Origin: Selenomonas dianae
GTDB lineage: Bacteria > Bacillota > Negativicutes > Selenomonadales > Selenomonadaceae
Direction: 5' to 3'
Length of the DNA stretch: 64,000 nt
NCBI RefSeq assembly: GCF_030644225.1
Contig: NZ_CP128650.1
Location: forward strand, 816,001 to 880,000
Made by a program: the position numbers and the translations under genes. The notes beneath the pieces are model-generated. The model did not search any database. It was not told the origin of the DNA and saw nothing but the letters and a program-made list of their open reading frames with translations. Positions 49,300 to 64,000 of the stretch are shown here, piece after piece; within the stretch, counting starts at the first letter, position 1; each line of letters begins with the position of its first letter.

Positions 49300-49405
49300 G
49301 CGTTCCCTCCTCCCTTTTGGTGCATTCATTTCAACTGGAAGTATTTTACTGGATACTGCTGTGTTCTGCAATCCCGTGTTTGCTGTCGAATTGATTCCTG
49401 CGCGA

Positions 49406-49454
49406 AAAGGTGCAGGGAAAATTGCATCTTTTCATGCGCTATGACTGCTAGAAT
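49406..49454 (+). promoter_or_regulatory. Shared CRISPR-locus element, copy 1 (before the viperin-like gene)
   Basis: AAAGGTGCAGGG then AAAATTGCA (49406-49426) is identical over 21 bp to 57623-57643 before cas10. It forms an inverted repeat, AAAGGTGCA ... TGCATCTTTT. TTGCAT (49422-49427) could act as -35 and TAGAAT (49449-49454) as -10, but the spacer is 21 bp, so an activator or repressor that bends DNA would be expected. Confidence 0.7.
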
Positions 49455-49500
49455 GTGGACATGGATAAGGCAGTGAGCACAACGGATGGAGGGATGACCT

Positions 49501-50343
49501 ATGACGACGATGAATCACTTGAAGGTCAATCTGCACATTACCGAGCGGTGCAATTTCAAATGCCGGTACTGCTTCGCGCACTTCGAGAACAAGAATGATA
49601 TGGGAATCTCCGATTGGAAGCGCGTGATCGATAATCTGAAGCGGAGCGGTATGGTGACGAAGATCAACTTTGCGGGCGGTGAGCCGGTACTGCACAAGGA
49701 TTTTGCGGAGATCGTCGACTATGCCTACGGGCAGGGATTCCAGCTCTCCGTGATCTCGAACGGCTCGCTGCTGCTCGATCGGAAAAACTTGCCGCAGGAC
49801 TTCTTTCGTAAAATCACGACGCTTGGGATTTCTGTAGACAGCATCGTACCGGAAACACTTCAAAAACTTGGCTGCTGCGATGCAGGCGACAATGTGTTGA
49901 CGAAGGAGAAGCTGGCGCGGCTCTTGTCTGTGGCAAAAACGGAAAACCCCGATCTTATCATCAAGCTGAACACGGTCGTCACGAACCTAAACGCCGGGGA
50001 GAAGCTCACACATCTGGAACGGGAACTTCCGATTGCCCGATGGAAGTTCCTCAAGATGAAGCGTTTCGACGACGGGCAGCGCACGAACAAGAGCCTCGAA
50101 ATCGACGAGGAGACGTTTCAGAACTTCCTGCGCAGCAACGCCCGTATGCAGGGGGAGAGTGTTCCCGAAAGCTCCCTTGCGCGTTCCTACATCATCATCG
50201 ACAACCGTGGTTCTCTCATCGACAACGCAGAGGATCACTACAAGACCGTCGGCAGTCTGCTTCGTGAGGAATTTCGGACGGTGTTTTCCCGCTACGCATT
50301 CGATGAGGAACTCTATGCAAGCCGGTATGAACAGGTCGGATGA
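49501..50343 (+). CDS. Prokaryotic viperin-like radical SAM enzyme
   Basis: This is a 280-residue protein. [4Fe-4S] motif CNFKCRYC (Cys17, 21, 24), then KINFAGGEP (residues 54-62), SVISNGS (83-89), ISVDS (110-114), IKLNTVVTNLN, RWKFLKMKRF, and SLARSYIIIDNRG after VPESS. These match, in order, the viperin series (NFSGGEP, SIVSNGS, ISCDS, KINSVI, RWKVFQ, VPESN...DSYLILDE). Viperins turn CTP, UTP or GTP into 3'-deoxy-3',4'-didehydro nucleotides that stop viral RNA polymerases. The end is FDEELYASRYEQVG, without the RGGxYxW tail. No nucleotide kinase is adjacent; it is followed by two CARF-HEPN genes. Confidence 0.85.
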   Translation: MTTMNHLKVNLHITERCNFKCRYCFAHFENKNDMGISDWKRVIDNLKRSGMVTKINFAGGEPVLHKDFAEIVDYAYGQGFQLSVISNGSLLLDRKNLPQDFFRKITTLGISVDSIVPETLQKLGCCDAGDNVLTKEKLARLLSVAKTENPDLIIKLNTVVTNLNAGEKLTHLERELPIARWKFLKMKRFDDGQRTNKSLEIDEETFQNFLRSNARMQGESVPESSLARSYIIIDNRGSLIDNAEDHYKTVGSLLREEFRTVFSRYAFDEELYASRYEQVG

Positions 50344-50368
50344 GGAGCGTTCTTCCCTCCGATCATTC

Positions 50369-50397
50369 TTGCAGATGATGTGTATATTCGGTAAAAT
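50369..50397 (+). promoter_or_regulatory. Promoter for the CARF-HEPN pair
   Basis: TTGCAG (50369-50374), a 17-bp spacer and TAAAAT (50392-50397), in the 83-bp gap after the viperin-like gene. No terminator is seen in this gap, so readthrough from the viperin promoter is also possible. Confidence 0.6.
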
Positions 50398-50426
50398 AAG
50401 AGATAGCTTAGGAGGTGTGTGTTTTC

Positions 50427-51989
50427 ATGAGACAGAACATTGCCATCAATTTTTTCAGTCCGGTACATATGGGGAAGGGCGTGGATGCAGCGACGGGGCT
50501 GCGTTTCGCCTGTGTGACAGAGAACCCGTTTATTCTGGAGGTGGGGACAGAGCCGTTCCCCGGCTTCCAGACGAACGAAGCCCCGCTTGCCAATGTGGTC
50601 GACCTGCTTGCACGGGATGGGGAGCAGTTGGATCGCGTCTATTGCCTCGTTACGCCGCAGTGCATCTCAAGAGCAATGGGCGGCGAGAATAGTGATCTTT
50701 TGGTGATTGAGAATGAGGCGCGGCGTATTTATCCGAGCCCGTTCGATTTTTGGTGTACCCGTATGAAGCGGCTGCGTCCTGCACTCACGGAAGCCATATT
50801 CATCCCGATCCTGCTCCGCTATCGTGAGGACGCTCTCATTGAGGATATTGAGGGTCATGTTGCATCCCTTACAGAACGCATCAAGGCAGATGCCGGCGGC
50901 TTCGCTGCATGGGGAGACTGTCACATCTATGCGGATATTACAGGCGGGGCGCGTTATGTCAACATGATGATGACCTCGGTTCTGCAATTCCTGCAATATG
51001 ACGGTATGCAGATTGAGAAGATGCTCTATGCGGATTTTCATACCCTTTCGCAGGAGAACCGCATCTTTGACGTGCGTGCCGCTGGTGATGTTTATAAGTT
51101 GGTTGCGGGTGCGGATGCATTCGTCTCCTACGGTATTTCTCGAACCATCGAGGAATATTTCGGCTATGACGCAGCGACAGGTCGAGCGGCAAAACCCATT
51201 GGCAGTGCGCTCAAGGACGTACTCGGCGCAATGCACACGTTTTCCGATGTGATTCAGATCTGTCAGACGGGAAATGTGCCACACGCGTTAGACGGATTAA
51301 GTGAGGCACTTGCGGCATTCTTGGAGATGCCCGAAGAAGAACGTACGGTGGATGACCGTATGTTCATGCAGATCATAGATACGATCACAGAGGGGGATGG
51401 TGCATTGCTTGCGGTGGCGGACGACGAGACGGAACGCTATGAGGTCATCATCCGCTGGTGTGCAGAGAAGGGGCTCCTCCAACAGGCGATGACCTTTGCG
51501 ACGGAGTGGCTGCCCGTCTGCTTCATCCGGCGCAAAATCGTCTATCCTCTGCCCATGCTCCGTTCCTGTGCGAGGTCGGCGGTGGATCGGATGCACCCCG
51601 GGTGGATGCAGAACTTCATCATCAGTCCGAACCTTTACTGGAATGCCATTCAGGAGCGCAAGAAAAAGAACGATCCGATTGTTCTTCAACTGGGGCTTGA
51701 AAAGTGTACATTTCAGCAGGGCGACCCCAACAGCAGTGAAGCACGGTGGGCGGCATGGCAGGATACATGGCAGCAACTGCTCGAAAAGGTGGAGGTCGTG
51801 CGGACGGATTGCGGAAAGAGTCTCATGTTTGACTGCTTGCGTACACACTTTTACCTGCGAGAGCGGCGAAATCTGATGAATCATGCAATCGCGGAAAATG
51901 TATCGCGCAGGGAAATCGGAGTGCTGCTCGACGATGCACTTACGGCACTTGCTGCGGCTACGGACAGGATACAGAAGGGAGCAATGTAA
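50427..51989 (+). CDS. CARF-HEPN protein (Csx1/Csm6-like, TM1812-type), first paralogue
   Basis: This is a 520-residue protein from ATG 50427 (GGAGGTG ribosome site). The N-terminal CARF sensor domain contains HIYADITGGARYVNMM (the D-x-T-x-G motif of TM1812/Csx proteins) and LQYDGMQIEKMLYADF. The C-terminal helical domain has the HEPN RNase motif R-x4-H in ERRNLMNHA (about residues 481-486). Such proteins bind cyclic oligoadenylate made by Cas10 and then degrade RNA. It is a paralogue of the next gene (shared RWC...LLQQAMTF segment). Which cOA size it uses cannot be read. Confidence 0.85.
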   Translation: MRQNIAINFFSPVHMGKGVDAATGLRFACVTENPFILEVGTEPFPGFQTNEAPLANVVDLLARDGEQLDRVYCLVTPQCISRAMGGENSDLLVIENEARRIYPSPFDFWCTRMKRLRPALTEAIFIPILLRYREDALIEDIEGHVASLTERIKADAGGFAAWGDCHIYADITGGARYVNMMMTSVLQFLQYDGMQIEKMLYADFHTLSQENRIFDVRAAGDVYKLVAGADAFVSYGISRTIEEYFGYDAATGRAAKPIGSALKDVLGAMHTFSDVIQICQTGNVPHALDGLSEALAAFLEMPEEERTVDDRMFMQIIDTITEGDGALLAVADDETERYEVIIRWCAEKGLLQQAMTFATEWLPVCFIRRKIVYPLPMLRSCARSAVDRMHPGWMQNFIISPNLYWNAIQERKKKNDPIVLQLGLEKCTFQQGDPNSSEARWAAWQDTWQQLLEKVEVVRTDCGKSLMFDCLRTHFYLRERRNLMNHAIAENVSRREIGVLLDDALTALAAATDRIQKGAM

Positions 51990-51990
51990 C

Positions 51991-54228
51991 GTGCGGAAGG
52001 ATATTATGCTTTGCTTTTTGAGCGATGTCAAAACCAAAGACGAAAAAATTTCTGTCGCAGAGTATCAGAACATAGGAGACCAAAAAGAATGTCATACAAC
52101 GAATGAATCCGCTGTCCGCTATTTGCTATACGGATCGAATGAGCCTGTGGATAAGTTGTCGCGGCTCTTTCTCGTGCGGACGAACAAAGTTGCTGGAAAT
52201 ATTACTTGTCTTGTGAAAGAACAGGATTTGGAAGGCAAGCGGACTTCTCGCTACATAGACTACAAAGATGAGCAGGAGAGAACATGGACGCATTATAAGT
52301 ATTTCTTGCACCGCATTTCTGAGCTTATAGCGGATACAGAGGAGATTGAAGATGTCAGGGTTAGGGACATTGTCGAACATATTGATTTTGATGAGGATGA
52401 GCCCATTGAAGAAAATATGAACGCACTTATCCGCGTTGCCTCCCGCGTACGCGCCTATGCGAAGAGCGTCCGAGAAGATGACCCTGCGGCAGAGATTGTT
52501 CTCCATGTTGACTGTACGGGCGGAATGCGCAACGCCTCTATGATTCTCGTTGCACTCATGCGTCTCCTCCAATATGAGCGCATCGAGATTGGTAAAGTTC
52601 TCTACTCGAATTTCAATCGAAATGACCCACAAAAGAATCGGGTGGAGGAAGTCAATCCCTTGTACTCATTCTTTGATCTCGTTGCGGGAGCGGAAGAATT
52701 CGTCCGTCATGGGGAAGTGACCGTGCTGAACAAGTTCTTTGAGAAGCGGGAGCGCAGCACCCATCTGGATACACTCCTCAATGCCATGCAGAAGTTTGCA
52801 GAGGAATTGAAGCTCTGCCATTACGGTGATTTGAGTGAGGCGATTACAGTCCTTCGAGATGCCATTCATGATTTTCCGGAGATCTCTCCCTCCGATGTAT
52901 CATCGGCGGCAAAGCAGAACGACGACCTCATGCGTCAGATGCTTGGGCGCATTCAGGAGGACTATGCGCCGATTCTGAAGGAGAAACTCGACGACATCGC
53001 ACTCATCCGATGGTGCATTTCTCATAATCTCCTTCAGCAGGCGATGACACTCTTTACCGAACGTGTGCCGGAGTCCTTGGTCAAATCAGAATTTTTGTGG
53101 ATTCAACCCGCTTATCAAACAGATTTTTCCAACGAGCAAAAGAAGGATTCGATGAAGCGGACGGAAGCTTTCTATCTTGTCAATGTCTATCCGGAGCAAC
53201 GCCGATATGTAGGACAACAGAAAGACACGCAGGACACGATGCTGAACCGAGGAAAACAGGTATGGAAGGAGCGGTTTGGAGAATTTCTGCAAAACCTTCT
53301 GACGGAGCCGCACCATGTAGAGAAGCAAGACATTCACAAGCTGCTTGAAAAGCCGTTGCTTGAATTCGATGAAATACGCTTAAGCAATGCAGCGGAATTG
53401 GGCAAAATTCTCTTTTCCATTCATACGATGTGCAGAGCGCAGGCGGGAGAGATTTCACCGGTAAGAGCAGAGATGAAAAAATATCTTGACTACGTTCAAA
53501 CATGGGTTGCAGATAAAAAAGTAAGTAAAAATGATCTAAAAGAGGATATTTTTACAAAAGACGACCACGAGCTTGCGGGAACGATCATCAAATTCATGGA
53601 GGAAAAAGTTGGTCAGGCAAGGTTTTATCTTAGTGTAGAACGGATGCGTGGAGCAGTCAGAATGAACGAGGGGCGACTCTGTTCGTGGAATCCGGAAAAG
53701 GCACGCAGTATCCTCACACGGTATTTTGACATCAAGGATGAGCGGAACCATACGAGCCATGCCGGCAACAAAACAAGACGATTTGACGCTGCCGAATTGG
53801 AAAAGCAGATGAGCGTAGCACTTGATGAAATCGAGACTGTTTGCGCGAAAAAACCGGTGGAACGAAATGCGTTTATCAACCACACAAATCACCCCTCCTC
53901 GCGTTGGGAGGAAGGGCAGAGACGCGCCGTAGGAAAAGATCGAAAGATTATTGATTGGCCGTTTCCCTTAATTCCCGCCGATGGGGGGGAGGAGGAAGTG
54001 CGTCGCCTTGCGGAGGAGAATGCACGCATGATCCTTGCATATCGCCCTTCAGCGGTGCTTGTGCAGGGCGAGTTCAGTTATACTTTTGCCCTTGTCAGCA
54101 TCTTGAAGGAGGCAGGAATCCCAACCCTCTCTGCGTGCAGTGAGCGCCTTGTGCATGAGCGCGTCGATGAAAACGGAGAAACGATACGCGAGTCACGCTT
54201 TGCATTTCGACGCTTCCGCACCTATTGA
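51991..54228 (+). CDS. CARF-HEPN protein with fused C-terminal domain, second paralogue
   Basis: This is a 745-residue protein from GTG 51991; a second start, ATG 52006, is possible. CARF motif VLHVDCTGGMRNASMILVAL, then LLQYERIEIGKVLYSNF. RWCISHNLLQQAMTLFTERV matches the first paralogue. HEPN R-x4-H in DERNHTSHAG (about residues 585-590). From ~625 an extra ~118-residue domain opens INHTNHPSSRW and contains AVLVQGEFSYTFALVSILKE and LSACSERLV; it looks like small stand-alone proteins of type III loci, possibly of the Csx15/16/20 ring-nuclease class. Its 3' end overlaps the convergent WYL gene by 7 bp. Confidence 0.85.
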   Translation: MRKDIMLCFLSDVKTKDEKISVAEYQNIGDQKECHTTNESAVRYLLYGSNEPVDKLSRLFLVRTNKVAGNITCLVKEQDLEGKRTSRYIDYKDEQERTWTHYKYFLHRISELIADTEEIEDVRVRDIVEHIDFDEDEPIEENMNALIRVASRVRAYAKSVREDDPAAEIVLHVDCTGGMRNASMILVALMRLLQYERIEIGKVLYSNFNRNDPQKNRVEEVNPLYSFFDLVAGAEEFVRHGEVTVLNKFFEKRERSTHLDTLLNAMQKFAEELKLCHYGDLSEAITVLRDAIHDFPEISPSDVSSAAKQNDDLMRQMLGRIQEDYAPILKEKLDDIALIRWCISHNLLQQAMTLFTERVPESLVKSEFLWIQPAYQTDFSNEQKKDSMKRTEAFYLVNVYPEQRRYVGQQKDTQDTMLNRGKQVWKERFGEFLQNLLTEPHHVEKQDIHKLLEKPLLEFDEIRLSNAAELGKILFSIHTMCRAQAGEISPVRAEMKKYLDYVQTWVADKKVSKNDLKEDIFTKDDHELAGTIIKFMEEKVGQARFYLSVERMRGAVRMNEGRLCSWNPEKARSILTRYFDIKDERNHTSHAGNKTRRFDAAELEKQMSVALDEIETVCAKKPVERNAFINHTNHPSSRWEEGQRRAVGKDRKIIDWPFPLIPADGGEEEVRRLAEENARMILAYRPSAVLVQGEFSYTFALVSILKEAGIPTLSACSERLVHERVDENGETIRESRFAFRRFRTY

Positions 54229-56799: not shown

Positions 56800-57621
56800 A
56801 TGTTAGGTGTTTTGGTTCTGCGTCTGCGCGTGGAGCGGGGCGGTCATTACTCCATGTTTCCGGGCAAGCTGCTCCACGGTGCGCTCTTTCGCTGCATTGC
56901 CGCATACAATGCCCTGCTCGCGGGCGATCTTCATGAACGCAGGGTAAAACCCTTTACCGTCGGGATGCTGCGGCGTGTGGGGAAAAGTTTCGGTGCAGTC
57001 CCGCAGGCACGAGAGCTGAATGAGTCGCACTATGCTGCGGGGGAGAAGCTGCTGCTGCGTTTGACCGCGCTCGATGAGGATGTGCTTTTCGCATTCCTTC
57101 ACATCCCGTGTGGAACACAGCTTGCAGTAGGGAAACTCGTCTTTACCGTCGAGGAGGTCCTTGCCAACGGGCAGGAGGACACAGGATGCGTCGAGGTGGA
57201 GGAACTGATCGCGGCGGCTCTCTCGATGGAGGAGGTTACACAGTTTCGCATTTCCTTCCGGTCGCCGACGGTCTTTCGCGTGGATAATGCTGACTGTGCC
57301 GTTCCGCGTCCCGAACTCATCTTCGCCTCCCTCGCGGATAAGTGGACGTGGCAGAGGCTTCCCTCTGTTCTGGACAAAGCCTATGTGCGTGGGGTCGCCG
57401 CAAAGCTAACGCAGCTCGAATGGAGGGGTGCAGGACTTCAGATTCGGCAGAGCGCGCAGAAAACAGTACCGGGATTTATGGGGGATTTCACGTTCCGCAT
57501 GGATCGCCTCTCTGCGGAGGAACGGGAGATTATCCTGCTGCTCGCGCAGTTTGCGCCCTTTTGCGGGACGGGGCGGCTGACTGCGCAAGGCTTCGGGGAG
57601 ACGCAAATCGTATTTTCATAG
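56800..57621 (+). CDS. cas6: Cas6 CRISPR RNA endoribonuclease
   Basis: This is a 273-residue protein. Two RAMP-type ferredoxin folds: an N-terminal part with LLHGALFRCIAAYN (His26 is a candidate catalytic residue) and a C-terminal part with ISFRSPTVFR, FMGDFTFRMD and the Gly-rich loop FCGTGRLTAQGFGETQI. Cas6 cuts pre-crRNA within the repeats. No array is in the window, so it presumably processes one nearby or elsewhere. It is transcribed toward cas10 but separated from it by the shared regulatory element. Confidence 0.88.
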   Translation: MLGVLVLRLRVERGGHYSMFPGKLLHGALFRCIAAYNALLAGDLHERRVKPFTVGMLRRVGKSFGAVPQARELNESHYAAGEKLLLRLTALDEDVLFAFLHIPCGTQLAVGKLVFTVEEVLANGQEDTGCVEVEELIAAALSMEEVTQFRISFRSPTVFRVDNADCAVPRPELIFASLADKWTWQRLPSVLDKAYVRGVAAKLTQLEWRGAGLQIRQSAQKTVPGFMGDFTFRMDRLSAEEREIILLLAQFAPFCGTGRLTAQGFGETQIVFS

Positions 57622-57622
57622 G

Positions 57623-57670
57623 AAAGGTGCAGGGAAAATTGCACTTTTTACGGTAGAATTCGTGTAAGAT
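57623..57670 (+). promoter_or_regulatory. Shared CRISPR-locus element, copy 2 (before cas10)
   Basis: The 21 bp at 57623-57643 are identical to 49406-49426. TTGCAC (57639-57644) may be the -35, with TAAGAT (57665-57670) as -10 at 20 bp. TAGAAT (57654-57659) is also present but too close. It lies directly after the cas6 stop, giving cas10 and the RAMP genes a promoter that may respond to the same regulator as the viperin-like gene. Confidence 0.7.
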
Positions 57671-57749: not shown

Positions 57750-59471
57750 GTGGAAGACAGGACATATACATATCAGGCAATACTCTTTGACACACGCTCC
57801 ATTCAAAAGTATATCTTTTCGAGCAATCGGCTCAAGGCGAACATCGGCGCATCTCATCTCGTCGATCGCGTCTTTGATGATGTACTGCTGCCGACCGTTC
57901 GTGGGGAGCTGGGTGCGGATGCGCTCGATGATAGCTCGTGGGAGCAGCCGGAGATGATTGATTGGACGGATATGCGGACAGCGGCGCGCGTGGGCTACAT
58001 CGGCGGCGGCAACGCACTCCTTCTGTTTCGGACGGAGACGGTGTACGAGACACTTCGTTCTATTGTGTCTGCATTCACCAAGAAACTTCTCGAAAAAGCC
58101 CCCGGACTGCGCACGGGAGCGGCGATTGGTACGATGACGCTTCGGGCAGACGGCAGCTATGCCGGCGCATCGGATCATTCCGATGCGCCCAATGATCTGA
58201 CGCGCCTTGTTCACAAGCTAAAGAACTTCCAGAACACGGTGATTCCCACTGTGAACGTTCCCTACACGGGGCTGACACTCGTGTGCGGTGAGAGCGGGGA
58301 GACTGCGAACGTATGGATGAGGGACGAAAAAGAGCCGAACGGTGACAAAGCATCTGACGATGTGGCGAGTGTTCCGGCAAACGTGAGGATGAGAGATGAG
58401 AAGGCGCCGAACGGGCGGTTCTACGCGTGGGAAGTCGCGGAGAAACTGCGCGTGGCAATGCCGCAGGATGGAAAACCGGCAGCGGTGCAGACCGCACTGA
58501 TGGAGAAATTGCAATCTTTCCTTCCGACAAAAGAGCGGGAGAACTTTAGGAAGAACTATGCTTTCCCGATGAAGTTCGATCATCTCGGACAGCAAACGCC
58601 GAAGAATGACATTGCTGTCGTCCACATCGACGGCAACAACATGGGGAAAAAATTCCAAGAATGTAAAACATTGACCACGCGCATCCAACGCTCGCTTGCG
58701 ATCCGTGACACGACCATTGCCGCCTTTGCTGCACTGGTACAGAATATTGTGGCACATATTGAGCGTTATAATGGAATCCTTGCACTTGGCGAAGATCAGA
58801 AGAAGCGCACGCTGCTTCCCATCCGTCCCCTCGTTCTGGGCGGCGACGATATGACCTTCGTCTGTGCTGCTAAGGTCGCGGTGGAGTTTGCGAGTTTTGT
58901 GATGCGCCATTTGGTGCATGACGATACGGAAGGCCGTACCCCCATTGACAGCTGCGCCGGCATCACGATCATGAATACATCATACCCCTTTTTTCGCGGG
59001 TATCAGATGGCGGAGGAACTCTGCGCAGCGGCGAAGAAGCGTATGCGTGAGAGCAAAGAGGCGTCCTGCTGGCTTGACTTTGCCATCCTGCACGGAGATC
59101 GGGCATCGACACTCGCGCAGTTCCGCGCGCAGGAATACACCGGTGTATGCGGTGATCTGCATTTCGGTCCTTACCGTGTCGATGCGGATGCGGGAGAGAT
59201 GGAGAGCCTTGCAGCACTCCTTGCAGGAGTACGAGGGATGCGGAAACTCCCGAACAACAAGGTCAAGGAACTGCGCCGTGTCCTCATCTACAGTGCACAT
59301 GAGCAGCGGCAGTTCCTTGCACAGATCGGCTATCTCGGGATGCGTATTCCATCTCCGGAGGCGTGGCGTGATTACGAGAAAGACCTTTGGGGGAAGGATA
59401 AGCGAACGCCCTATATGGATGCGGTTGAGCTGATGGATTATATCATAGAGGATGAGGAGGTGTGCATATGA
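57750..59471 (+). CDS. cas10: Cas10, HD-less, with GGDD cyclase motif
   Basis: This is a 573-residue protein from GTG 57750. It starts directly in the palm domain (LFDTRSIQKYIFSSNRLKAN, ASHLVDRVFDD) with no HD nuclease domain, so it is shorter than typical Cas10. Palm 2 has VVHIDGNNMGKKF and the catalytic LGGDDMTFVC (G364-D367), intact, so cyclic oligoadenylate synthesis is predicted. A linker at residues ~187-222 contains an internal duplication (NVWMRDEKEPNG and NVRMRDEKAPNG). It leads an operon of RAMP genes and overlaps the next gene by 4 bp. Type III-D is inferred from the neighbours. Confidence 0.92.
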   Translation: MEDRTYTYQAILFDTRSIQKYIFSSNRLKANIGASHLVDRVFDDVLLPTVRGELGADALDDSSWEQPEMIDWTDMRTAARVGYIGGGNALLLFRTETVYETLRSIVSAFTKKLLEKAPGLRTGAAIGTMTLRADGSYAGASDHSDAPNDLTRLVHKLKNFQNTVIPTVNVPYTGLTLVCGESGETANVWMRDEKEPNGDKASDDVASVPANVRMRDEKAPNGRFYAWEVAEKLRVAMPQDGKPAAVQTALMEKLQSFLPTKERENFRKNYAFPMKFDHLGQQTPKNDIAVVHIDGNNMGKKFQECKTLTTRIQRSLAIRDTTIAAFAALVQNIVAHIERYNGILALGEDQKKRTLLPIRPLVLGGDDMTFVCAAKVAVEFASFVMRHLVHDDTEGRTPIDSCAGITIMNTSYPFFRGYQMAEELCAAAKKRMRESKEASCWLDFAILHGDRASTLAQFRAQEYTGVCGDLHFGPYRVDADAGEMESLAALLAGVRGMRKLPNNKVKELRRVLIYSAHEQRQFLAQIGYLGMRIPSPEAWRDYEKDLWGKDKRTPYMDAVELMDYIIEDEEVCI

Positions 59472-60334
59472 AGAAAAAACAAAATGCCGCTGAGCGGCGA
59501 AATGCGAAAAAACAGCAGACACAGGAGGCGCGCCTTGCAGCGGTAAAACAAAAACGGGAAGAAAAAGAAAAAGCGGCACGTATCGAAAAAGCAAAATCCG
59601 CACGTGTTCCTGTGAAAACACCGATGCTCCGATATGGAGATAAGGCTTCGAGCGCGGAGATCAAACCGACCGCTCCACTTTATGTTCACGTTAAGATCCT
59701 TTCTCCGCTTCATCTTGGTTCGGGAGGTGCGGACATCCATGTCGATGCCGATGTTGTGCAGGATGATGTCGGGCTTCCGTATTTCCCCGCGAAGCGGCTC
59801 AAGGGGCTGCTCTATGAGAGTGGGCTTGAGGTTTCGGAGATGGCGGGGGGATGCCTCATTGCTAAGGAAAAACTCGATACCCTCTTTCAGCGCGGGAGAG
59901 GCGGCGTACAGCAGCTTGTTATTTCCAATCTGTATCTTGAAAACTATGATGTGCTCCACGTGGATCTGTTGTATTTGCAAAAGAACTTCCCTTCCGTGTT
60001 CCGCCCTGCATACGTCCTTGATCAGTATGCGAGCGTGCGTTATCAAACGGCGATCAACCCGGAAACCGGTGTTGCACAGGAAAACTCGCTGCGCAATATG
60101 CGCGTGCTTGATGCGGGACTTACGTTCGTGGGCGAGATTCGGATTCTTGGCGGGGACAAGGATTGCCTCAGGACACTTGCGCTTGCCGTGCGTAACCTTT
60201 CGCAGTGTGGCGGCAAACGCACGCGTGGATTTGGACAGATCGCGTGTACGCTTACGCAGAACGGCAAGGATGTCCTTGTACCTCTTGTGGAGGAGGCACT
60301 GTCCAAAATCAGAAGGAGAGGAGGAAAAGCCTGA
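59468..60334 (+). CDS. Cas7-like RAMP protein with lysine-rich N-terminal arm
   Basis: This is a 288-residue protein from ATG 59468 (GAGGAGGTG ribosome site, overlap with the cas10 stop). Residues 1-50 form a charged helix (KKKQNAAERRNAKKQQTQEA, EEKEKAARIEKAKSA), not usual in Cas7. The Csm3-like core follows: LSPLHLGSGGADIHVDADVV (Asp candidates for target-RNA cutting), LPYFPAKRLKGLLYES and the Gly-rich GGKRTRGFGQI. It would form part of the crRNA-binding backbone. The next start overlaps its stop by 1 bp. Confidence 0.82.
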   Translation: MKKKQNAAERRNAKKQQTQEARLAAVKQKREEKEKAARIEKAKSARVPVKTPMLRYGDKASSAEIKPTAPLYVHVKILSPLHLGSGGADIHVDADVVQDDVGLPYFPAKRLKGLLYESGLEVSEMAGGCLIAKEKLDTLFQRGRGGVQQLVISNLYLENYDVLHVDLLYLQKNFPSVFRPAYVLDQYASVRYQTAINPETGVAQENSLRNMRVLDAGLTFVGEIRILGGDKDCLRTLALAVRNLSQCGGKRTRGFGQIACTLTQNGKDVLVPLVEEALSKIRRRGGKA

Positions 60335-61896
60335 TGATGGAGATACAAGTTCGGATTCACACAAAGACACCCGTCATCCTCCCGTGTACGGGAGATGCGT
60401 CGGATCTGACGGCGACACAGGAGTTTTTCAGCGGCTCGGTGCTGCGCGGGATTCTTGCACGGCAATTCATCGGGAAACGGAAATTGGACGATGATGCCCA
60501 TGAAGATGAAACGTTCAGGAAACTCTTTTTTGGCGATCTGCGCTTTGTTCATGCCTATCCGTACGATCCTCGGAACGATACACGGGCGATGATCCTGCCC
60601 TTTTCCCTCCAACGGAGCAAGGACGGTACGTGCATCAAAGACCTTCTGCAAGCAGATCCTGAACCGAATTTCAAGGGGGTGAAGGGCTTTGCTGTGATTG
60701 CCGAAGGGGAGATTCGTTCGGTAGATGTACGAAAGAGCATCGGCTTTCATATGAGCCGCACCGATTTGAAGAGCGAAGGCGGTACGGCACGGCTTGCGGG
60801 GAAAAGCGGCGACGTCTACAACTATGAGGCGATCGCGGCGGGGCAGGATTTCCTCGGGTACATCTATGGATCGCTGCAGTTCCTCAATGCGCTCCTCGAA
60901 CACATAGAAGAGCGCACTTTTTCCTGCTATGTCGGACGGTCGAAATATACGCAGTATGGTCTGTGTGAGGTAACGCTTGGTGAGCCGCAGCCTGTGCAGA
61001 GGATAGCCGCTCCATCAGGAAATACTGTATACCTCCGTATGGAAACCCCATTCATCCCACATGGCGGTACGCCGGGAGATGTCGCCTCCATGCTGACGGA
61101 AATTACAGAACGCTTGAACGCTGCATACGGCAAAATTTTTGCCAAGACGGAGGAGATTGATAACTTCGTCGGTGTATGGGGTCTGCGGCGTCCGCGCGAA
61201 ACTGCTCTTGCGGCGGGGACGGTCTTTGCCGTCGCGAAGGAGGGAGGCTGGCAGGACGCAACTGCGGTGCTCAATGAGCTTTGTCTGCGCGGCGTCGGAC
61301 GCCGCCGCGCAGAGGGATTCGGTCAGCTGCGGATCTGGACTGCCGACACACTTCGTTGGGGAACGCCATGGGAGATGACGCGCACAGGGCGGGGGCCTAT
61401 TGGTGATGAGGCAAAGACACTCGCACAAAAGATCCTGATTGCGCACATCATCGAACAGGTGAAACTCATCGCAGATGAGGATGCGAAGGGGGCGATGCGA
61501 TCCTGCGAAGCGTGTACACCGCATCAATTTGCACGTCTGGAACAGGATCTCGGTTCGCGCCCGAGCGGTGTAAAAACACGCATGGAAGGCAGTGTCGCAG
61601 ACTACAAAAAGGATACACCGGTAGAAAACATCAAAATTGGTGAGCGATCCCTTCGTACATATTTCACTGTGGGAGCAGAGATCACAACCATGCCGTATTA
61701 TGCCAAAGCAGCGGAGACGATGAAGCCGGATTCTGATTTGGCGAAGGCTGCCGATGAGATCGGCATGGAGATTACTAAGCTCCTACGCGCGGAGGAAGTT
61801 TATCATGCCTACTGGCACACATTCTTCCGCTATGCGCGAAAGAGGACAAAGGATACGGACGAAGGGAGATGCGCTCATGTGTCAGAAGGAGAATAA
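60334..61896 (+). CDS. Csx10-like RAMP (Cas5 group of type III-D)
   Basis: This is a 520-residue protein from ATG 60334. An N-terminal RAMP fold (QVRIHTKTPVILPCTGDASD; FFSGSVLRGILARQFIG, the G-S-x-L-R-G motif) is followed by LFFGDLRFVHAYP and a second RAMP-like part with VYLRMETPFIP and the Gly-rich GVGRRRAEGFGQLRI. Length and order match Csx10, the Cas5-type subunit of III-D complexes that would hold the crRNA 5' tag. It overlaps the next gene by 20 bp. Confidence 0.78.
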   Translation: MMEIQVRIHTKTPVILPCTGDASDLTATQEFFSGSVLRGILARQFIGKRKLDDDAHEDETFRKLFFGDLRFVHAYPYDPRNDTRAMILPFSLQRSKDGTCIKDLLQADPEPNFKGVKGFAVIAEGEIRSVDVRKSIGFHMSRTDLKSEGGTARLAGKSGDVYNYEAIAAGQDFLGYIYGSLQFLNALLEHIEERTFSCYVGRSKYTQYGLCEVTLGEPQPVQRIAAPSGNTVYLRMETPFIPHGGTPGDVASMLTEITERLNAAYGKIFAKTEEIDNFVGVWGLRRPRETALAAGTVFAVAKEGGWQDATAVLNELCLRGVGRRRAEGFGQLRIWTADTLRWGTPWEMTRTGRGPIGDEAKTLAQKILIAHIIEQVKLIADEDAKGAMRSCEACTPHQFARLEQDLGSRPSGVKTRMEGSVADYKKDTPVENIKIGERSLRTYFTVGAEITTMPYYAKAAETMKPDSDLAKAADEIGMEITKLLRAEEVYHAYWHTFFRYARKRTKDTDEGRCAHVSEGE

Positions 61897-63223
61897 GGCG
61901 GCGATTCGCGGCCGTATCACCGTAAAGGGCATCCTTCAACTGGATGCGCCGCTCCTCATCGCCGAGGGCGCGTCGTCAAATGAACGCGGCGGTCTCGACA
62001 TCCATGTGCTTCAAAACAGAGACGGTGTGCCGTTCATCCCGGGCACGTCACTCGCGGGCGTTCTGCGCAGTGCGGTCAAGGACGATAACGTGCGTAATCT
62101 GCTCTTTGGAACGATTGACGAAGAGAACCCACAGCAAAGTGCTGTTCTTCTCTACGATGTCCTTCTTGCGAATGCAAAGATTGGCGTGCGCGACGGCGTC
62201 AGCATTGATGCGGTCACGGGAACAGCAATCAAAGGCTATAAATATGACTACGAAGTCGTGGAGAAGGGCGCAAAAGGGGTTTTTTATGCTGAGATTGTTT
62301 TGCGTCAGATCCATGCGGAGCAGCAAGAGGAACTGACGCAGGAACTGCGTCATCTTTGCAGACTGCTGTGCAGTGGATTTCATGTTGGCGCGCTCACAAC
62401 AAAGGGGTTCGGGCGTGTTCATATGACACAGATTGATATTGACTGCTACGACTTCAGCAATTCTGATGATGTTGCCGCATGGCTTTCGCCTGAACGTAAA
62501 CCGGCGGTCATGCACTGGGACGAAAGTGATTTTTTGGAGGCGGAGCATCCACGATATGCCGCAGAGGACTTTATGATCGAGGCGGATTTTGTTCTCACGG
62601 GATCGCTCATTGTTCGGGACAAGGATGACGACAAAGATGTCGCTGCGACGATGAAGAAGTCCGACGGTGAATACATCATCCCCGGAACGAGCCTCAAGGG
62701 GGTTCTGCGCCATCGTGCAGCATACATCCTGCACGCATTGGGGAAAGATCAGACCGTGGCGACAGAGCTCATCGACCGTCTCATGGGTACAACTGCCGTG
62801 CGCAGCCGCTTCGTCGTTGAAGAAACGATCATCGATGCCGAGGCTCATCCGCAGACACGCAACCGTATCGACCGATTTACAGGTGGGACAATAAAATCAG
62901 CACTCTTTTCGACCGAGCCGGTATGGCGGAAAACGGAAGGAGGGCGTCCTGTTACACTACGTTTCGGCGTGCATCAGGCTCGTGATTGGGAGGCGGGGCT
63001 GTGTGTCCTCCTGCTCAAGGATCTCTGGCTCGGACGCATAGCGATCGGCGGGGAGAAATCCATCGGGCGCGGCACCCTTGAGGGGCTGCGTGCTGTCATC
63101 CATGACCGGGGACAGTGCTATGAACTGGCGCAGGAACAGCCCTTTCATGAGGGGACGATGCAGATCTTGCAGAACTATGTGGCGGCATTGCATCAGATAC
63201 AGACGAAGGAGGTGGAGGCATGA
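61877..63223 (+). CDS. Double Cas7 (two fused Csm3-like RAMP domains)
   Basis: This is a 448-residue protein from ATG 61877 (GGGAGATGCG). First domain: LLIAEGASSNERGGLDIHVL, VPFIPGTSLAGVLRSA and the Gly-rich GALTTKGFGRVHM. Second domain from about residue 220: ADFVLTGSLIVRDKDDDKDV, YIIPGTSLKGVLRHRA, GTTAVRSRFVVEETIID, then IGGEKSIGRGTLEGLR. Fused Cas7 units are typical of III-D and related complexes. The first domain keeps an Asp in GLDIHV where Csm3 has its catalytic Asp; the second has an acidic DKDDDKD loop instead. Confidence 0.82.
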   Translation: MCQKENKAAIRGRITVKGILQLDAPLLIAEGASSNERGGLDIHVLQNRDGVPFIPGTSLAGVLRSAVKDDNVRNLLFGTIDEENPQQSAVLLYDVLLANAKIGVRDGVSIDAVTGTAIKGYKYDYEVVEKGAKGVFYAEIVLRQIHAEQQEELTQELRHLCRLLCSGFHVGALTTKGFGRVHMTQIDIDCYDFSNSDDVAAWLSPERKPAVMHWDESDFLEAEHPRYAAEDFMIEADFVLTGSLIVRDKDDDKDVAATMKKSDGEYIIPGTSLKGVLRHRAAYILHALGKDQTVATELIDRLMGTTAVRSRFVVEETIIDAEAHPQTRNRIDRFTGGTIKSALFSTEPVWRKTEGGRPVTLRFGVHQARDWEAGLCVLLLKDLWLGRIAIGGEKSIGRGTLEGLRAVIHDRGQCYELAQEQPFHEGTMQILQNYVAALHQIQTKEVEA

Positions 63224-63816
63224 GCACGGAAAAGGAAAAGCGGTTTTGCCGGATTCGCGAGGGGTGCAGTAAGACAGAAGCGATTGACATTCCTGCATCC
63301 GAGGAAGCTCTCTGCGATCAACTGCGTGGCGTACAGCAAGCAACAGTCGTCCTCTGGCAGATGAACGCAGTTCGTTTTGGTACATGGGATGGACGTGCGT
63401 TCTCCTTTCCCGTTCATGCGCCGTTGCGGATGGAGCTCCTTATCGAACTTCGCATCTTCAATGAACAGGGAGAGCTGTATCTGCGATGTGAGGATGAGCG
63501 GCTCATCGGACGCCTTCGTACGGACGAGGCGGGGGATAAGACAGCGTATGTCGATACCATTGCGCGATTTTGGGGAAGCTGGGGCGATAAGGATCAGGAA
63601 AAGGAGAAGAAAACCGAATGGATGACCCTGCGCGACACGTCGCGCAAGCTGAAACTGCGGCTGCCCATCGTCGGAGGGAAACCCCACTTTGTCGGGCTTG
63701 TGACGCGCAGCTACATCGGCTTTCACAAAGAAACAGGACAGGCGGGCTATATCGACCATCGCTATTACGCAATCGAATCGGCAGATATGGAGGTATATGA
63801 TGGGCAAGGAAAATGA
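63220..63816 (+). CDS. Csx19-like protein
   Basis: This is a 198-residue protein whose ATG overlaps the previous stop by 4 bp. VLWQMNAVRFGTWDGRAF followed by LLIELRIFNEQGELYLRCED resembles Csx19, a small subunit-like protein specific to type III-D loci. The C-terminal half (WMTLRDTSRKLKLRLPIVGG, LVTRSYIGFHKETGQAGYID) also fits. The assignment rests on pattern, length and position. Function is not established. Confidence 0.65.
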   Translation: MSTEKEKRFCRIREGCSKTEAIDIPASEEALCDQLRGVQQATVVLWQMNAVRFGTWDGRAFSFPVHAPLRMELLIELRIFNEQGELYLRCEDERLIGRLRTDEAGDKTAYVDTIARFWGSWGDKDQEKEKKTEWMTLRDTSRKLKLRLPIVGGKPHFVGLVTRSYIGFHKETGQAGYIDHRYYAIESADMEVYDGQGK

Positions 63817-64000
63817 GATCGCGACAGCACCGTATAACTTCGTATCCCTGCCAAAGACGGTGCTCGCCTCGCCGATGAACGGAAATGCCGTGACCGATGA
63901 GGAGCGCACACTGAACTACCGTACACATGTCCTTGAAAAGGGACAGTTTAGTGGGCGCATCGAACTGACGATTGAAACAAAGACACCCGTCTTTATTGGT
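63800..64000 (+). CDS. RAMP protein of the TIGR03986 type, start only (cut by window edge)
   Basis: ATG 63800 (GGAGG upstream; ATG 63797 is also in frame) opens 67 codons to the right edge. APYNFVSLPKTVLASPMNG near the start and FSGRIELTIETKTPVFIG at the end are typical of TIGR03986-family RAMPs found in type III-D loci. It overlaps the Csx19-like gene by 17 bp. The rest of the protein and the locus continue beyond the window. Confidence 0.7.
   Translation, partial: MGKENEIATAPYNFVSLPKTVLASPMNGNAVTDEERTLNYRTHVLEKGQFSGRIELTIETKTPVFIG

Follow-up and report, generated by a model that had tools for sequence, protein, structure and literature searches.

Our analysis of a 64,000-nt stretch of the Selenomonas dianae chromosome (the window) identifies, on sequence grounds, a true prokaryotic viperin, related to the antiviral viperin of humans, at the head of a type III-D CRISPR-Cas locus, and finds viperin linked to III-D loci in four further genomes of the same family, in other arrangements. 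Within the range of the search, an already described enzyme turns up repeatedly as an accessory to an established CRISPR type, largely in a single family, the Selenomonadaceae. We consider it fairly probable that viperin is an accessory gene of the III-D loci in this family and is used together with them.

The type III-D locus and its chromosomal site

The III-D locus of the window is complete and contains, in order, viperin, two CARF-HEPN genes, a WYL gene, cas6, cas10, cas7, cas5, a double cas7, and csx19 (Table 1). An earlier note on this DNA had placed viperin ahead of two CARF-HEPN genes inside a Cas10 locus, and this description holds: PADLOC recognizes the two CARF-HEPN products (PDLC01835 and PDLC01830) and III-D cas genes. 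Past the end of the window, in locus L043, there follow a CRISPR leader, 17 repeats (L043:1389–2562), and cas1 (259 bits for the Cas1 match). By gene content, the locus is type III-D CRISPR-Cas, and it resembles known type III-D systems with CARF-HEPN (Csx1/Csm6-like) proteins in having the full core cassette, the array, cas1, and the effectors. The ORF of CARF-HEPN RNase 1 is listed from 50415, and inspection by eye finds an ATG after AGGAGG at 50427; the true start of Cas5 probably lies further inside its ORF. Csx20, fused to CARF-HEPN RNase 2 in the window, is a separate 129-aa ORF in the congener G025 (L082:8625–10783). Upstream of carf-hepn1, inspection by eye picks out a stretch, TAAAATAAGAGA, that is also conserved in G025, G031, and G036; it may serve this gene as a separate promoter.

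Table 1. Features of the viperin/type III-D region, in window coordinates
Feature	Position	Strand	Evidence and remarks
Upstream element	49406..49432	+	Imperfect inverted repeat, 9/10 pairs, 8-nt spacer
Viperin (prokaryotic viperin, radical SAM)	49501..50343	+	NF038283, 238 bits; pVip PDLC02903, 228 bits; trees
Upstream region of carf-hepn1	50366..50426	+	Homologous to congener G025
CARF-HEPN RNase 1	50427..51989	+	PDLC01835, 654 bits; R-x5-H motif
CARF-HEPN RNase 2 with C-terminal Csx20	51883..54228	+	PDLC01830, 597 bits; PDLC01397, 105 bits; NF040559, 40 bits (under cut-off 70); start codon uncertain
WYL/WCX-type regulator, 830 aa	54222..56714	-	PF25583; PDLC01652
Cas6	56800..57621	+	PF10040, 49 bits
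Second copy of element, between cas6 and cas10	57623..57649	+	Inverted repeat, 8/10 pairs
Cas10 (III-D; Cas10d)	57750..59471	+	PDLC02057, 355 bits; GGDD intact
Cas7 (III-D)	59462..60334	+	PF03787; PDLC02091, PDLC01585
Cas5 (Csx10-like)	60205..61896	+	TIGR02674 (NCBIfam Csx10), 67 bits, below cut-off 177; PDLC02091 (PADLOC Cas5_IIId), 148 bits
Cas7-Cas7 (double RAMP)	61754..63223	+	PF03787, two stretches; PDLC02111, 323 bits
Csx19	63220..63816	+	TIGR03984, 103 bits (cut-off 35)
Gene start running off the window	63800..64000	+	Weak BLAST likeness to double Cas7

The earlier note had also reported that the region upstream of viperin repeats an element found before cas10. The element is real and rare. 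Specifically, 68 nt separate the end of its first copy from the start of viperin, and the sequence AAAGGTGCAGGGAAAATTGCA is present at 49406–49426 and 57623–57643 with 0 mismatches at both sites, which are the sole two at ≤3 mismatches in the 2.39-Mb genome (reversed control, 0; a pattern one base shorter, four genome sites at the same tolerance). Two matches are observed in the window, compared with 0.10 expected, and a 14-nt core recurs in the CRISPR leader (L043:1168–1181). However, G027, G035, and G026 have near-copies with 1–2 mismatches at the equivalent chromosomal position, next to the gene that also neighbours it in the window; in these genomes no III-D proteins were found near the element and no Cas10d match was found either. 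The general Cas10 palm model also matches GGDEF-like proteins (those of E. coli among the controls), and weak matches in these three genomes were therefore not counted. Because the element sits at the same site in congeners that lack III-D, it does not alone tie viperin to cas10, and we reject the proposal that it proves a viperin–cas10 regulon. Judged by its distribution, the element is a feature of the chromosomal site and not proof of a CRISPR regulon.

Two other readings of the element were rejected. As a CRISPR-repeat-like RNA, it has no more in common with the repeat than one 9-mer, which 241 and 160 of 2000 shuffles reached. A general role for the window WYL protein in binding the element is contradicted by G025, G026, G027, and G035, in which the element is present and no homologue of the WYL protein was found; among 13 congeners, homologues were found in three (G024, G031, and G036), and these are distant and split over two ORFs. 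In the BrxR report (PMC9122601), a WYL regulator acts over defence islands; as in the window, inverted-repeat sites stand before two gene groups and the WYL protein is encoded in the island, but the window element, unlike that case, also occurs in those four congeners. A consensus search found no sigma-70-like promoter before the window viperin.

The site, bounded by a gene for a 588-aa protein and by the gene behind the III-D locus, has variable contents among congeners: III-D with viperin in S. dianae (G000); III-D without viperin and WYL in G025; III-D without viperin, as judged by neighbours, in G031 and G036; nothing in G027; and viperin remnants, with no cas gene found beside them, in G026 and G035. 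Homology with G025 falls into two blocks, one spanning the neighbour gene through the element and the other beginning at window position 50366, before carf-hepn1; the blocks are 56 nt apart in G025 and 943 nt apart in the window. In G035, homology covers the viperin ribosome-binding site together with codons 1–5 of the gene and then joins the far flank. In G026, the element is followed by a 657-bp viperin remnant that is 75% identical, lacks the first 62 residues, and has a broken frame. A DNA search of 14 genomes of the genus thus accounts for one intact viperin (G000), one degraded (G026), and one stub (G035). Stretches of this site were compared with window positions 49300–50343 at L097:6300–6760, L096:6080–6560, and L098:5840–6640. 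The remnants in G026 and G035 speak against claiming that viperin was newly inserted in the window compared with G025; G035 may have lost viperin and III-D together, or may never have had III-D. By these contents, the site is a hotspot in the genus. The repeated presence of viperin here, intact or as a remnant, counts for the accessory reading; the remnants lacking cas genes count against it, as they look as if viperin can hold the site alone.

Recurrence of the viperin/III-D linkage

Viperin was found above cut-off in 9 of 189 Selenomonadaceae genomes. A search of 380 genomes across the class, Negativicutes, returned the same nine, and a phylum sample of 398 genomes returned the window's own viperin only. 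In five of the nine (G000, G147, G158, G166, and G188) viperin lies within or beside a III-D locus, so that the linkage to cas10 proposed in the earlier note does recur in related genomes; the other four are located in another cassette (G057 and G099), apart from the III-D contig (G065), and at a contig end (G082). A strong Cas10d match (E below 1e-40; counted by hand in 52 of the 189 family genomes) is present in 7 of 9 viperin genomes versus 45 of 180 others (Fisher p 0.002).

Only 5 of the 52 strong-Cas10d genomes have viperin in the III-D locus, and 47 do not. These numbers would suit a stand-alone viperin that shares defence hotspots with III-D and acts alone, its closeness to cas genes being functionally meaningless, and this reading also draws on the genus site, with its III-D with or without viperin, viperin remnants without cas genes, or nothing; on the solitary viperins and those in other cassettes elsewhere; and on one island that also holds JukA. 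We regard it as possible, though on balance unlikely, in view of the following features of the linkage.

A tree of the Cas10 proteins from 13 loci (the five with viperin and eight picked from the other 47) requires the presence of viperin to change at least four times, as forced by the starred branches; these changes argue against shared hotspots as the whole explanation, as do three different arrangements of viperin with cas genes. The position of viperin varies as well: it is before carf-hepn1 in the window, after cas6 in G158, beyond the array in G166, and before cas10 in G188; in G147 it is flanked by an array on one side and a remnant of two repeats on the other, and follows a putative cas1-like gene. 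Between G158 and G147, viperin is 85% identical, compared with 49% for Cas10 and 39% for Csx19, indicating that one viperin lineage accompanies different effector cassettes. We read the linkage as recurring beyond the common descent of one locus. If viperins were placed uniformly, five of seven would fall within 20 kb with a probability of about 1e-8, a figure that counts against the hotspot reading but ignores hotspots and relatedness.

Spacing and a promoter-like motif also weigh against functionally meaningless closeness. In G188, viperin is followed by cas10 at a distance of 112 nt; in G158, it is preceded by cas6 at a distance of 99 nt; in both cases the two genes share a strand. The motif, ATGCCAAA-N16-GGTTWTA, has 15 exact copies (six in G147, one in G158, and eight in G166), all inside the III-D island or no more than about 3 kb away from it (motif loci L034, L037, and L077–L081; G147 C44 and G166 C44), and is common to viperin and island genes in G166 and G147: it precedes viperin in G147 (one copy) and in G166 (one exact copy and one with a mismatch), and it also precedes jukA, a csx20-like gene, and genes of unknown kind. 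In G158, no copy precedes viperin at ≤2 mismatches, although cas6, the gene immediately upstream, is preceded by a copy with 2 mismatches. The arrangement in the four other loci (G147, G158, G166, and G188) suggests common expression.

The motif was rejected as a general III-D feature, because the exact form occurs in 3 of 20 genomes and is absent from the other 17, comprising ten with strong Cas10d (G188 and nine viperin-less III-D genomes) and seven without. At ≤1 mismatch, the islands of G147 and G166 contain seven and nine copies, respectively, and the remainder of these genomes zero and two. A gene of 336–347 aa recurs near cas10, viperin, or a jukA-like gene (L033:16627–17670, L037:979–1989, and L077, at G147 C44:89828–90838), and the two copies tested had no PADLOC match.

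Searches beyond these loci covered other bacteria, plasmids, and viruses. Ten genome-contig loci of 18 (L052–L061) had no match to the proteins of the window's III-D locus except the radical SAM gene, in a search that a divergent type III system would escape, and the Synergistaceae relatives of viperin are not near cas genes. Among plasmid viperins (8 of 15 records, with incomplete gene tables), none was found in a type III operon; cmr6 lies about 8 kb from viperin on Anabaena pANACY.03, and a short cas1 about 7.5 kb from viperin on Nostoc pNsp_a. A phage search for viperin gave no match. Viral contigs contributed 15 viperin-search loci, and two closely alike viperins on viral contigs (L062:8001–8855 and L063:4456–5355) fall outside the clade of the window protein.

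Rumen Selenomonadaceae and one Synergistaceae MAG contain another viperin cassette (L035:3141–10011, L038:2135–9871, and L052:1921–9015). It comprises viperin, GTPase-like genes (IIGP/MMR_HSR1 in L038), a gene for a large kinase-ATPase-TPR protein (Pfam, L035), and, following viperin, a further radical SAM gene (recognized by Pfam in L035 and by BLAST in L038). This viperin-GTPase-kinase-ATPase-TPR cassette may be an undescribed defence system.

Identity and conserved residues of the viperin

The window viperin is encoded by an unbroken ORF of 280 aa and matches NF038283, the NCBIfam equivalog for prokaryotic viperin (cut-off, 180 bits), over residues 7–277. The eukaryote-type viperin model scores 90 bits. 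The top PADLOC model is the pVip model 'not associated with kinases', and the top matches in a PDB search are viperins. In a tree of 27 proteins, 19 viperins, including the window protein, separate from 8 other radical SAM proteins with support 100/99; in the best tree of 17, the five III-D viperins lie together on one side of a branch with support 60/84, a value that neither establishes nor rejects a single III-D clade. The motif series from which the enzyme had originally been recognized is present: C17-x3-C21-x2-C24, NFAGGEP from residue 56 (G59–P62 being GGEP), ISVDS, RWK at 180–182, and SYIIIDNRG. No second domain, whether CARF or other signal-binding, was found with Pfam or PADLOC. The G+C content of the gene (53.0%, versus 54.3% for the window) is uninformative.

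The protein ends in SRYEQVG and has no RGGxYxW tail. The absence of this tail and of a nucleotide kinase had been called unusual, and neither proves to be so. The missing tail is clade-wide: an SRY ending occurs in 14 of 19 aligned viperins (all 12 nearer relatives and two viral proteins), an R-x-G-x-Y-x-W ending in four, and the one left is an ORF cut short. For kinase-less viperins, PADLOC has a model of their own. Both absences are ordinary for the clade of the window viperin.

Across the 19 aligned viperins, 25 columns are invariant, including C17/C21/C24, GGEP, K155, N157, W181-K182, E223, and Y230. By hand mapping, K155, N157, R180, and K182 of the window protein align with mouse K220, N222, R245, and K247, which we take to be functional residues of viperin. 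Comparison of the G158 (L033) and G147 (L034) viperins gives a dN of 0.08 and a dS of 1.32, values by which viperin is under purifying selection. At the position aligned by hand with mouse R194, a residue that presumably touches SAM, five of the nine family proteins have Cys and the other four Ala, whereas the 10 other aligned viperins all have Arg. This substitution could mean that an enzyme of viperin lineage has changed its chemistry or substrate, with SAM or the nucleotide bound differently and a product other than the classical ddhNTP; we consider this improbable, as the 25 other columns are invariant and the score is well above the equivalog cut-off. The founding paper on prokaryotic viperins (pVips) is reportedly that of Bernheim et al. 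2021. The window protein resembles pVips in its NF038283 and PADLOC pVip family, in its invariant residues, and in belonging to the kinase-less group; it differs in its III-D locus, its lost R194 equivalent, and its SRY tail.

A MoaA/PqqE/SPASM-type radical SAM identity, whose MoaA and W-maturase models match through the common radical SAM core but reach 70–71 bits at most versus 238 for NF038283, has a negligible probability and is refuted by the scores, the PDB matches, and the tree, as the earlier note had expected in calling the protein a viperin.

Proposed function and meaning

That the pairing of viperin with III-D recurs in related rumen bacteria suggests that phages may be met by two measures at once, the destruction of RNA and an inhibitor of its synthesis. 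In the proposed mechanism, viperin with SAM would convert a ribonucleoside triphosphate to its ddh form, which would end the RNA chains of the phage polymerase. Recognition of phage RNA by the crRNA would lead the Cas10 complex to make cyclic oligoadenylate, which would switch on the CARF-HEPN RNases to cut RNA. Together, the two arms would degrade RNA and halt its synthesis at the same time. We infer the enzyme activity, its substrate, joint induction, and synergy. Nothing seen points to viperin sensing the cyclic nucleotide signal.

A closer coupling, which we consider very improbable, would have viperin as a type III output that meets signalling: a ddh-nucleotide could be a chain-ending Cas10 substrate, or the signal could set the ddh-nucleotide supply, and a single infection would yield terminators of RNA chains as well as cyclic oligoadenylate, or either of the two would tune the other.

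To our knowledge, the known type III accessory proteins are nucleases, proteases, membrane proteins, and transcription proteins. The type III literature searched, insofar as its text was available, showed no accessory of the radical SAM, nucleotide-modifying kind. Among the open-access titles and abstracts listed, there is no report of viperin in type III loci, although the founding pVip paper or its supplements may note the link. The link is likewise not stated in the passages available from PMC12988326, PMC8649781, PMC13356809, PMC5379612, PMC4158269, PMC9123187, PMC9122601, PMC10865869, PMC12926258, PMC11084316, PMC10848311, PMC9090908, and PMC10952713. One of these reports describes viperin genes beside hicA or relE RNase toxin genes and raises joint action (PMC10865869). 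Viperin stands beside RNA-cleaving proteins in both cases, but the proteins there are toxins of toxin-antitoxin pairs, whereas the window RNases are of the CARF-HEPN kind and belong to an adaptive system.

If viperin is indeed an accessory used together with III-D, an adaptive RNA-guided system would have gained a small-molecule antiviral arm, with cyclic-oligoadenylate RNases and ddh-nucleotide chain terminators joined in one locus. The locus makes mutual reinforcement of viperin and signal-activated RNA decay directly testable. In animals, RNase L and viperin are both part of the interferon response, and one bacterial locus with both arms would be a notable parallel to it.
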